Origin: Helicobacteraceae bacterium
GTDB lineage: Bacteria; Campylobacterota; Campylobacteria; Campylobacterales; SZUA-545
Direction: 5' to 3'
Assembly (NCBI GenBank): GCA_031288475.1
Contig: JAITRJ010000034.1
Coordinates: 1-64,000, forward strand
DNA: 64,000 nucleotides
The notes below the pieces were generated by a model that saw nothing but the letters and a program-made list of their open reading frames with translations, was not told the origin of the DNA and ran no database searches. A program made the position numbers and the translations under genes. Of the stretch, positions 20,964 through 26,138 are shown piece by piece. Positions within the stretch are counted from its first letter, which is position 1, and each line of letters starts with the position of its first letter.

Positions 20964-21812
20964 CTAAAGCGTCGGCAGACGGACGATGTTGTGATCTAGC
21001 CCCAGCTCTTTCTGATCAATTCCCATCGCAAGTCCGATCATCTGCGTCAGATGAAGTACCGGAATTTTAACCGGCTGCCGCGCCGCCTTCGCGGCGCTGT
21101 CCTGCTTGGCGTCAAGGCTTAACTGGCAAAGCGGGCATGGAGTCACGATCATATCTGCGCCGCAATCACCCGCTCCCGTTAATATCTCTCCGCTTAATCT
21201 GTATGTAGTCAGCGGAGCTTGAATCTCCGTATGAAATCCGCAGCAGCCGTTTTTACGCTCGTAATCGACCCTTGCGCCCCCAAGCGCGGCGATCAGATCG
21301 TCCAGCGAGGAAGGGTTAAAGCCGTTATCGCCATTTACGGCGGCTCCTCTTAAATTATGGCAGCCGTAAAAAGGCGCAATACGCCACCCCTCAAGCGCGT
21401 TTGAAACCGGTATATTCGCAAAACCCAGATCGTCGCGCAACACATATAAAAAATGACGGACTTTTGTGTCCGCATCATAACGCAAACCTATCTGTTCAAG
21501 TTTGCCATTTACCTGATCGAGCAGCGGTTTGTCGTTTTTCAAGCGATCGGCGGCATTTGAAAGTATAAGCTGGCAGGTGTTGCAGATGGTAACCATCTCC
21601 AGCCCCAGATTCTGTGCGCAGCAGAGGTTGCGCGCATTGAGCATCAGCGCAAGAAAGTCGTCATAATCCTGCAGATGTGCCGCACCGCAGCAGCTTGCGT
21701 CCTTAAGCTCTGCCAGTTCGATATTCAGCCGATCGCTCACCGCCCGCAGAGATTTCGCGAGTTCAGGCGCCGCGCCGTACGGCGTGCAACCCATAAACAA
21801 CGCGTACTTCAC
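20964..21812 (-). CDS. sdhE: CCG-domain subunit of succinate dehydrogenase / (methyl)menaquinol:fumarate reductase (SdhE/MfrE, HdrB-like)
   Basis: two CCG motifs (DASCCGAAHL; ERKNGCCGFHTE), CNTCQL and CPLCQLSLD; overlaps sdhB. Confidence 0.9.
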   Translation of the reverse strand: MKYALFMGCTPYGAAPELAKSLRAVSDRLNIELAELKDASCCGAAHLQDYDDFLALMLNARNLCCAQNLGLEMVTICNTCQLILSNAADRLKNDKPLLDQVNGKLEQIGLRYDADTKVRHFLYVLRDDLGFANIPVSNALEGWRIAPFYGCHNLRGAAVNGDNGFNPSSLDDLIAALGGARVDYERKNGCCGFHTEIQAPLTTYRLSGEILTGAGDCGADMIVTPCPLCQLSLDAKQDSAAKAARQPVKIPVLHLTQMIGLAMGIDQKELGLDHNIVRLPTL

Positions 21813-22756
21813 CTGCTTCTCCTCGCGATTTCTATCAGCTTTTTCACTTCGTCAAGCCTTTCGATCGGCGTAGTTTTTTTCGGCAGCTTTTTGCGTCGCA
21901 GCATTTTAAGCGCCGTTTTGACGTGTTTTAAAGCGAGAAACCCAAGCGAGTAACGCACGGCCACGTTTTCGTCCAACCTGCCGCAATTCTCAATGGATCG
22001 CAGAAATACCTTGCTGTGCCGCGTCGCGGGATTATTTGGCGCTCTGCTCCGCACAAAACTTTGCAGGTGCAGCTTCGTAATTTTGTCAATAGGCGAAATC
22101 TTCTTTGGGCAAACAGCCTTACACTCCATACATTTTACGCAGTCCCAGATGCCGCTCGCGGGGGCATTGACCATATCTAATCTCTCAATCGTCGCCGTAT
22201 CCCGTATATCTACGGCGAAGCGAAAGAGTTTCGTAAGCGCGTGCGGTCCCAGAAAGCGCTCGTTTACGCGCGAAGCGGGGCAGCTATAGTAACAGGCGCC
22301 GCACTCTATGCAGCCGTCCGCGCCCTCGATCCGCTCCGTGACAACGGGAGATATGAGATTTTCGCTCATCGGCGACGAAGCGATCTCGCTTATCTGCCAA
22401 GGCCTAATTTCTCTGTATTTTTGCCAGAAGTCGGTTTTATCAACGATCAAATCCTTGATGGCAAGGCGGCGATCCAGTGGATCAATAAAGAGCTCGTCTC
22501 CAAAGGTTTCCACAAGTTTATATATATTTTCTTTACAGGCTAAAACTGCTTTGTTATTCACTTTGATGGCACAGCTCCCGCAAATACCGTGTCTACAGCT
22601 TCTTCGGTAGCTTATGGTTGAATCAATATCTGCTTTTATGCGGTTTAATATATCCAGTGTAACCTCATTCTCCTTTACTTCCAGCCGATAACTTTGATAG
22701 CGCGGCGTATAGTCGAACTGCGCATTAAATCTGAATATATTGAACGTTATTTCCAT
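21809..22756 (-). CDS. sdhB: succinate dehydrogenase/fumarate reductase iron-sulfur subunit
   Basis: CRHGICGSCAIKVNNKAVLAC; CIECGACYYSCPA; CVKCMECKAVCPKKI. Confidence 0.95.
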   Translation of the reverse strand: MEITFNIFRFNAQFDYTPRYQSYRLEVKENEVTLDILNRIKADIDSTISYRRSCRHGICGSCAIKVNNKAVLACKENIYKLVETFGDELFIDPLDRRLAIKDLIVDKTDFWQKYREIRPWQISEIASSPMSENLISPVVTERIEGADGCIECGACYYSCPASRVNERFLGPHALTKLFRFAVDIRDTATIERLDMVNAPASGIWDCVKCMECKAVCPKKISPIDKITKLHLQSFVRSRAPNNPATRHSKVFLRSIENCGRLDENVAVRYSLGFLALKHVKTALKMLRRKKLPKKTTPIERLDEVKKLIEIARRSR

Positions 22757-24468
22757 CAGTAACTTCTTGTTTGCGGTTTATGCTCTTTGATTGAAACTGG
22801 AATATATTCTATCTTTACTTTTTTACTCCTGTTGAAATAGGCGAAACTATGCGCTAAAAACTGATGATCATCGCGATTGACATAATCTTCTCTATAGTGC
22901 GCTCCGCGTGATTCTTTACGTAAGAGCGCTCCTTGTGTAATAAACTGCGTATAGTCGATCATATGCGAGAATTCAATCGCTTCTTGTAACTCAGTGTTAA
23001 AACACTTGGAATTATCGCTAAGGTGTATTTTTTTAAAAGACCTCTTTATTTGATTGATTGTATTTATCTGTTCTTTCAAAGACTCTTCAGTCCTAAATAT
23101 TCCTACGTTTTTTGTCATAGAATCCTGTAATTTTTTGCGCAATTTTGCCACGCTGTGGCTGCCGTTATTTTCCAGTAGCGTTTTCACTTCGTTCACAAAC
23201 GTTTTGGCATTTCTTTCGTTTGCTTGTATAAACTCAATCCTGTCAATATCCTTTACGATTGTGTCGCCAGCCGTTTTGCCAAAAACGACGGCTTCCAGCA
23301 GAGAGTTCGCGCCCAGCCTGTTCGCGCCGTGTACGCTTACGCAGGCGCACTCCCCTGCCGCGTAGAAACCTGTAACCATCTGCTTGGCGTCGCGCCGTAC
23401 GCGGCAGTGTATGTCGGTTGGTATGCCGCCCATTGAATAATGCGCCGTCGGACGAATCATAACGCGCTCGCTCGTCAGATCGCGCCCCAAAAAGGAACGG
23501 CAGAGATCGCGCAGCTCCGGCAATCTAGCGTCGATCAACTCTCCGCCAAGATGCGTCAGATCAAGGTAGATGGCGTTTTTCTTTTCGCCCACGCCGCGTC
23601 CCTGCCGTATCTCGTTTTCGATCGCGCGGCTGACGATGTCCCGCGAGGCGAGTTCCATCTTTCCCGGAGCGTAATCAATCATAAACCGCCTGTTTTCAGA
23701 GTTAAAGAGTCGCCCCCCTTCTCCCCTTGCCGCCTCGCTCAGCAAAATCCCTCTCTCCGCAATTCCAGTTGGGTGAAACTGCACGAACTCCATATCCTCA
23801 AGCGGCAAACCGTGCCGTGCGGCTATTGAAAGCCCGTCGCCCGTGTTCGCCATAGCGTTGGAATTTACCGCGTAAGCTCTGGCGTATCCGCCTGTGGCGA
23901 ATAGAACGGCTTTGGAGTTGAAAATGGCAAATCCGGTATCTCGCATATCGTACGCCGTTACGCCAAACGCCGCGCCGTCCCTGTAGAGCAGATCGCCCAC
24001 GTACCATTCGGAGAGAAACTCCACTCCAAGCCGATCCGCCTGTTCGTACATCGTCTGTAAGCAGGTCAATCCCGTGCGATCTTTAGCAAAACAAGCTCTT
24101 GCCGCACTCTGCCCGCCAAACGCGCGCTGCGCAATCCTGCCGTCGTCTGTACGCGAAAAAACCGCGCCCATATTCTCCAGATAACGCACAACGGAGGGCG
24201 CTTTCGCGCACATCAGCGCGATCGCGTCCTGATCGCCCAGATAGTCGCTTCCCTTTGCCGTGTCAAATTCGTGCGCCTTCGTGCTTTTCTCGTTAAGCGC
24301 CGCGTTAATCCCACCCTGCGCCGCGCCGGAGTGCGATCTCAGCGGGTGAAGCTTGCTCAGCACGATAGTTTTAAGCTTCGCTTTTTTGCACTCAATAGCC
24401 GCCGCGCAACCCGCAAGACCGGCGCCTACGATTACGACATCAAAAGCGTAAACGGGAACGCTCATCAA
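22756..24468 (-). CDS. sdhA: succinate dehydrogenase/fumarate reductase flavoprotein subunit
   Basis: [55 protein letters not shown]. Confidence 0.96.
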
Positions 24469-25439
24469 AGCACCGGAATATCAAGCGGCTGATTGCAGCT
24501 ACGGGCAATCTCGCGGTAGTTTTTCCGCAGAAATTCGGCCGCTTCCCTCGCCGAACACAAAAGCGCCTCCGCGCCGCTCTCCTGAGCCTCCAAAAGCAGC
24601 CGCGCGCCGGCTTTAACGGCGATCTCCGGCAGCAGATCGCCTATCTCTACCCCGCTTATAGAGTTTTTCATCGTTATCACCTTTGCGCCGTAAAGCTTTG
24701 CCTTCAGCGACGGCAGATCGGCGGTTTCGTCCAGCAGCAAAGCGACGGTTTTGCCTTCCAGCGACGGCAGTTTCCATATTGATGGTGTCCATAACGCTCC
24801 CGCTCTAGCGCCCTTAGGGGCGACCTCAAGCTCAAGCGCCATCTCCTGAAGCGTCCTGACGGTCAGAGCGATCTCCCGCGCGCCGCTTACAAGCGATCGG
24901 TGGAGGGAACAGAAACTGAATATTCCGTTTTTCGCGTCGCATATCCGCCGCAATAGATCGGAAGTATCGCCGCGCAAGGCTCGAATCAGCCGATCCGCGA
25001 GCATAAAAACCGCCTCGCCTAAATAGTACGGGTTCAGCACACGCACAGGAGATAGGTAATATGCCATCTTATACTGATTGTAAAAACAGATATCCTCAGC
25101 GGTAATATTATCAAAGATAGAGAGCTTTGAATCAAAATCAGAACTGTCTATTTCCAGATCCAAAAGGGCGCGTTTAGTATCCAGCGGCTCAACGACAAAT
25201 TTTTTTCCAAAACGGCTGACGATATCGACGGCTTTCACGTCCAGCCCCGCGCCCCAGCCGCACAGCCGCACGCCGTCTACCCGCTCCAGATCACAGGTAA
25301 AGAGCGTATCCCGCTCTTTTACCGTTGTCAGCATTTCCGCAAGCGTCTGATCTTTTTTGACTTGAATAACGTATGGTTTATAGCTTGAGAGATAATCAAA
25401 CCGCGCGTTGAAACGAAACACCGTAATTTCAACCGTCAT
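24465..25439 (-). CDS. DUF5644-like protein: cysteine-poor SdhB paralogue with SdhE-like C-terminus
   Basis: ATGA overlap with sdhA; hand alignment to adjacent sdhB and sdhE products (see findings). Confidence 0.85.
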
Positions 25440-25460: not shown

Positions 25461-26138
25461 TTAAGAATTATACACTACGCTCTTTTTTAACAGTTTCAGA
25501 AAATCCGACCGCGATATTTCTTCCGCGCCCAGCGAAAGCAGATGATTACTCGGAGTCTGACAATCAATAAAGTCGATCGCTCCAAAAGGCATCTCCCGCG
25601 TCATATAACAGAGGGCGTTTTTGGAGGCGTCCGGCAAAGCGGCAAACATCGATTCGCCGAAAAACACCCTGCCGATCGACACGCCGTACAATCCGCCGCA
25701 AAGTTCGCCGTTTCTGTAGCACTCTACCGAATGCGCCGCGCCAAGCTTAAAAAGCTCGCGGTAAGCGTCGATAAATTCCTCGGTAATCCATGTGCGTTTC
25801 TCCTTTTTACGCGGAGCGGCGCAACGGCGCATAACCGTCTCAAAATCCTGATCGACCGCAATTTCAAACCGCCCATTTCTTATGGTTTTCGCAAGACTTT
25901 TGCTGATACGCAGACGCGAAGGATATAAGATCAAGCGTGGATCGGGGCAAAACCAGTATGGCATAGAACGTTCGATAAACCACGGGAAGAGGCCGCTTTT
26001 GTAAGCAAGCAACAATCTTTTAGCCGACAGATCGCCGCCGACAGCGACCAGATCGTCAAAATCCCCGCTGTTTGGATCGGGAAACTTTATTTCCCTGTCC
26101 AACAGAAAAATATTGGGCGATTTACTGATTAAACGCAA
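25461..26138 (-). CDS. aat: leucyl/phenylalanyl-tRNA--protein transferase
   Basis: GLFPWFIERSMPYWFCPDPRLILYPSRLRISKSL; GGLYGVSIGRVFFGESMF; DCQTPSNHLLSLGA. Confidence 0.96.
   Translation of the reverse strand: MRLISKSPNIFLLDREIKFPDPNSGDFDDLVAVGGDLSAKRLLLAYKSGLFPWFIERSMPYWFCPDPRLILYPSRLRISKSLAKTIRNGRFEIAVDQDFETVMRRCAAPRKKEKRTWITEEFIDAYRELFKLGAAHSVECYRNGELCGGLYGVSIGRVFFGESMFAALPDASKNALCYMTREMPFGAIDFIDCQTPSNHLLSLGAEEISRSDFLKLLKKSVVYNS

Follow-up and report, generated by a model that had tools for sequence, protein, structure and literature searches.

A cluster-free fusion of SdhB-like and SdhE-like sequences encoded next to sdhA in a Helicobacteraceae bacterium

Introduction

The type-E SdhABE/MfrABE enzymes of W. 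succinogenes and C. jejuni pair a flavoprotein (SdhA) with an iron-sulphur subunit (SdhB) and a CCG-type anchor subunit (SdhE). In thiol:fumarate reductase the latter two are joined, TfrB being one chain in which an SdhB-like part is followed by an HdrB-like part, and TfrB retains its cluster cysteines. The same order recurs in the HP0468-type proteins, which combine the domains DUF5644 (PF18712) and HdrB-like_C (PF22196). Both Pfam entries are without a function; a structure, 3KWL, has been solved from Helicobacter pylori, and we infer from its size, domain match and organism that it is an HP0468-type protein. In open-access papers we found no functional description of DUF5644 or HP0468, and the names Cj1459 and Cj1460 returned no result; nor did we find, in the same literature, an earlier statement of a joint SdhB and SdhE origin, of phylum-wide ligand loss, or of linkage to sdhABE.

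We describe psBE, a pseudo-SdhB/SdhE fusion protein of the DUF5644 type. Compared with the type-E enzymes, using SdhB and SdhE from this locus and its relatives, psBE is homologous to the two subunits over most of their length, but it is without their cluster-binding cysteines. It shares the one-chain order of TfrB (the first half of the TfrB family model NF004898 matches the SdhB encoded beside psBE, and its second half the adjoining SdhE) and differs from TfrB in the same missing cysteines. An H. pylori-type sequence (L093) lacks them too. Whereas 3KWL-type proteins have the whole SdhE-like half and a C-terminal tail, the family of psBE keeps about 100 residues of that half; and the Helicobacter HP0468-type members, unlike psBE, do not lie beside sdhABE.

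Results

We analysed a window of 64,000 nucleotides, a single stretch from an incomplete Helicobacteraceae assembly (1.25 Mb, 58 contigs, 71% complete) whose close relatives are Helicobacteraceae and other Campylobacterota assemblies. An open reading frame of 324 aa, reported in the first-pass annotation of this DNA, was found at 24465..25439 on the minus strand and is psBE. It is followed on the same strand, with ends overlapping, by sdhA (22756..24465; TIGR01812, 745.7 bits; covalent-FAD motif present), a genuine sdhB (21809..22756; TIGR00384, 228 bits; 12 conserved cluster cysteines) and a genuine sdhE (20964..21812; 10 conserved cysteines). The junction with sdhA had been read as an ATGA overlap; it is instead TGATG (24463..24467, minus strand), in which the psBE stop TGA and the sdhA start ATG have one base in common. 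Four-base overlaps of the ATGA type occur at the psBE junction in two relatives. Upstream on the same strand lie aat, encoding Leu/Phe-tRNA-protein transferase (25461..26138; PF03588, E=4e-65), 21 bases from psBE, and clpA and clpS; the closest relative (L062) has the same aat-clpA order, as judged by ORF length and position.

The N-terminal half of psBE is homologous to SdhB and its C-terminal part to SdhE. Residues 1-105 (25125..25439, minus strand) resemble the [2Fe-2S] domain of SdhB with its cysteine loop deleted, as seen by BLASTP and in cysteine columns 54, 59 and 74, which are gaps. Residues 106-205 (24825..25124, minus strand) resemble the C-terminal, dicluster domain of SdhB, equivalent to DUF5644, with the cluster cysteines substituted (hhalign and column counts), and residues 225-324 (24468..24767, minus strand) resemble the second half of SdhE, of the CCG/HdrB type, with substituted cysteines and without the C-terminal tail (hhalign). 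BLASTP aligned the N-terminal part with the adjoining SdhB at 32% over 114 aa (E=2e-14), and a profile built from ten close-family members matched the SdhB profile over 257 columns (E=1.2e-22, hhalign), H. pylori 3KWL (E=3.8e-27) and E. coli SdhB (5.8e-6). For the C-terminal 100 residues, the pairwise match to SdhE is weak (86 aa, E=0.001), and profile-profile comparison gave 3.2e-6 against SdhE (hhalign) and 2.8e-10 against the separate pseudo-SdhE proteins of relatives. A medium-quality AlphaFold model (pLDDT 76, pTM 0.62; input alignment of 8 sequences) retrieved 3KWL as the top Foldseek match (5.6e-12) and FrdB/SdhB chains next (from 3.6e-5), with low global TM-scores of about 0.2-0.35.

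These profile and structure comparisons rule out chance similarity to SdhB and SdhE. They were among the checks proposed with the first-pass annotation, and the significant profile matches to both SdhB and HdrB/CCG proteins uphold the two similarities that it had described. Its description of the protein as DUF5644-like holds for the family, since DUF5644 was matched by each of the 8 sequences in the close-family alignment (best 1.4e-7) and matches in genomes G002 and G010 exceed the cut-off, and falls slightly short for the window protein, which scores 22.8 bits against a curated cut-off of 25 (E=9e-5; residues 122-202 in the Pfam scan). The architecture of psBE is that of the DUF5644/HP0468 family, an SdhB-like N-terminal domain and then an HdrB-like C-terminal part, here shortened.

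Loss of the cluster cysteines, as first noted in psBE, proved to hold across 51 relatives. Aligned to the 12 conserved cysteines of SdhB, 51 pseudo-B proteins keep 5 of 612 cells and have the 2Fe-2S loop deleted; 50 pseudo-E parts keep 13 of 325 aligned cells at the 10 conserved cysteines of SdhE. The lost cysteines are the established cluster ligands in SdhB and HdrB. Missing from the pseudo-B family, then, are the ligands for the [2Fe-2S] and the two further clusters that define an SdhB/FrdB iron-sulphur subunit. The two CCG cysteine sets that define SdhE/HdrB are likewise missing, and the window psBE also lacks the first half of that subunit. If those cysteines are the ligands, psBE cannot be a normal electron-transfer subunit. 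A new cysteine, C295, within the 24468-24767 part of psBE, is invariant in the close family and does not occupy an SdhE ligand position.

Other SdhB residues persist: F8, F10, D15, D102 and G170 are retained in more than 90% of the 51 pseudo-B proteins. The strand F8-R9-F10 is kept in 47, 41 and 49 of the 51, respectively, and corresponds, as an IFR/FRF strand, to the I-Y-R motif of SDHB, which is recognised by cluster-transfer chaperones. Such retention would suit an iron-sulphur-side chaperone that uses this strand to bind nascent SdhB/SdhE, or proteins that deliver clusters, rather than the flavoprotein. The same strand belongs to the structural core, however, and could be conserved without taking part in any binding; we consider this role highly improbable.

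Many genomes of families f5, f11, f14 and f20, which belong to the same order, carry the two halves as consecutive genes, a DUF5644-type pseudo-SdhB (208-259 aa) and then a pseudo-SdhE (211-283 aa), with spacing from a 4-base overlap to 36 bases. The separate pseudo-SdhE aligns with SdhE over its full length (273 columns, E=3.5e-32, hhalign); HdrB-like_C was matched in 12 of 12 cases, and HdrB structures were matched at 1e-22. In other genomes a single chain of about 320-590 aa contains both halves. Families f11 and f14 each include fused as well as split forms, and the two kinds are also interspersed in the tree; this pattern suggests that fusion has occurred repeatedly and that the halves have a joint function. 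In the family of the window protein the fusion is shortened: the SdhE-like part has neither its first half nor its tail, and the absence of the first half leaves the SdhB-SdhE-like module incomplete. Given the profile matches to both parents, the relatives with the halves as adjacent separate genes, and the structural match to FrdB/SdhB, we agree with the first-pass annotation that psBE is a real chimera of B and E without cluster ligands. Since the halves are kept together, either adjacent or repeatedly fused, it is most likely that they work as a unit. Two small conserved proteins with no Pfam match were seen beside pseudo-B/E pairs, each kept in its lineage: one of 131 aa that precedes an rsmD-like gene (L078:7350-7745) and one of 171 aa (L094:7457-7972).

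A DUF5644 match was obtained for 199 of the 398 Campylobacterota genomes scanned and for no control (n=14), and a gene of this type is present in Helicobacter, Campylobacter, Arcobacter-type and free-living Campylobacterota. Many genomes with sdhABE or frdCAB are without psBE. Co-occurrence of psBE with FrdA/SdhA is uninformative, because the flavoprotein is near-universal (198-199 of 200 genomes). In a quick tree search with long branches, 42 pseudo-B proteins formed one clade against 31 real SdhB/FrdB proteins (SH-aLRT 100). Compared with its nearest relative, psBE has a dN/dS of 0.19, against 0.07-0.08 for sdhA, sdhB and sdhE; it is under purifying selection and evolves faster than sdhABE. 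A functionless, decaying duplicate would also have lost its cysteines and diverged faster than sdhABE, but psBE genes have open frames in dozens of genomes and several families, are under purifying selection, form an ancient single clade and still come in paired halves. This conservation rules out a decayed pseudogene, and we assign decay a negligible probability. The best explanation is that the psBE family is old, spans Campylobacterota, and descends from duplicated SdhB and SdhE of a type-E sdhABE. The comparisons show that both copies lost their iron-sulphur ligands early in Campylobacterota and retained their folds and many non-cysteine core residues.

Among the seven families that have both loci, psBE adjoins type-E sdhABE in five, often directly upstream. 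Linkage was found in 9 of 10 genomes of f1, 3 of 3 of f6, 2 of 2 of f9, 3 of 3 of f16 (a count that omits one further genome with the two loci on separate contigs) and the single genome of f18, where they are 2.8 kb apart; it was found in 0 of 2 genomes of f5 and 0 of 1 of f7. Genomes G166, G093 and G217 were chosen for close coordinates, and G282, G379, G408, G251, G294 and G315 were not so chosen. In f1, f6 and f9, psBE is immediately upstream of sdhA and co-directional; the f16 and f18 genes are encoded on the other strand, at distances of 16 bases to 4.4 kb from sdhABE. A gene would fall within 5 kb of sdhA in a 2-Mb genome by chance in about 0.5% of cases per lineage, the families being not fully independent. 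This linkage supports the functional connection to Sdh that had been proposed from the window.

The survey of DUF5644 neighbourhoods suggested at the outset gave a different picture in Helicobacter, Campylobacter and most Arcobacter-type genomes, where psBE lies away from sdhABE or frd. Thirteen other Arcobacter-type (f9) genomes have psBE, and in them no type-E SdhA passed the threshold applied; where the surroundings were read, no sdhA lay near psBE. In an H. pylori-type genome (G184), FrdCAB is the sole complex II, and the psBE family member present is not beside frd. Neighbours outside the sdhABE setting are lineage-specific: truD, thiL, flgI and an rsmD-like gene; pepF-like and TerB-like genes; or a murA-like gene. 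In two Helicobacteraceae-type genomes an SdhA-like flavoprotein of 480-490 aa, probably NadB, is encoded within about 5 kb of pseudo-B (L097:13539-14984, L099:2526-4001), probably by coincidence.

Such distant, lineage-specific settings would be expected if psBE served a purpose other than complex II, with the old SdhB and SdhE folds reused in, say, a binding protein or a scaffold for another pathway, and with the sdhABE linkage a relic of duplication. The absence of psBE from many genomes with complex II points the same way, as does a report that hydrogen raises HP0468 (as cited in PMC6090961). A relic, however, would tend to be lost or scattered, yet psBE has been kept in, or has joined, the surroundings of sdhABE in five families and in varied orientations; we regard an unrelated job as somewhat unlikely.

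Discussion

We tentatively favour a role in assembly, with psBE binding the flavoprotein as a stand-in for SdhB-SdhE that carries no cofactor. The proposal draws on homology to the SdhB-SdhE module, which covers the flavoprotein, on linkage to sdhA, and on a vacant assembly-factor niche. The phylum appears to be without the YgfY/SdhE flavinylation factor: PF03937 (Sdh5/YgfY) was absent from 101 of 101 Campylobacterota genomes and matched in the E. coli and Caulobacter controls, and the Campylobacterota SdhA/FrdA sequences checked have the histidine motif for covalent FAD. The E. coli factor, SdhE (YgfY), occupies the FrdB-facing surface of FrdA (PMC5773532). Factors of this YgfY/SdhE/Sdh5/SDHAF2 type have a small fold unrelated to psBE, which itself has no PF03937 match in a Pfam scan; the likeness would lie only in the proposed job of covering that surface.

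In such a stand-in, the two halves, adjacent or fused, would function jointly and mimic the SdhB-SdhE module without its cofactors. It would dock on SdhA where sdhABE is present and on FrdA elsewhere, at the face of the flavoprotein normally covered by the iron-sulphur subunit, and might hold the flavoprotein until replaced by cluster-loaded SdhB or FrdB. Several observations count against this proposal: many genomes without psBE have FrdA/SdhA with the flavin-linking histidine; FrdCAB-only lineages have psBE away from frd; psBE and sdhABE are not linked in f5 and f7; the SdhB-SdhE-like module of the window family is incomplete; and the AlphaFold model is of medium quality. As psBE-less genomes keep that histidine, psBE is not generally required for flavinylation, which weakens the case for it as a required flavinylation factor.

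The same homology and linkage could instead describe a regulatory or inhibitory pseudo-subunit, which would either be a competitor of SdhB-SdhE on the mature flavoprotein or enter some of the complexes and block electrons there, and so tune activity. The position of psBE, co-directional with sdhA and overlapping it in the window or just upstream of it in f1, f6 and f9, fits regulation, since expression of psBE is probably tied in this way to that of sdhA. Regulation of this kind would demand stable binding to the mature enzyme, and, if tied to sdhABE, leaves retention in FrdCAB-only genomes unexplained; we think it unlikely. Those genomes also bear on the first-pass suggestion that the protein may be an Sdh/Mfr pseudo-subunit: with family members in FrdCAB-only genomes such as G184, and none in many genomes with sdhABE or frdCAB, a strict Sdh/Mfr-only role is rejected as a general statement.

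Extending the stand-in proposal to the phylum, and with slightly more reserve, we suggest that Campylobacterota may possess a complex II assembly system of their own, in which an ancient cluster-free copy of SdhB-SdhE occupies the flavoprotein during maturation, and of which HP0468 (3KWL) and its Campylobacter counterparts would be members. For a conserved uncharacterised family that includes 3KWL, our analysis supplies an origin, in cluster-stripped SdhB and SdhE, and a testable function. The psBE family is thereby a concrete candidate for how complex II with covalent flavin may mature without the usual assembly factor.
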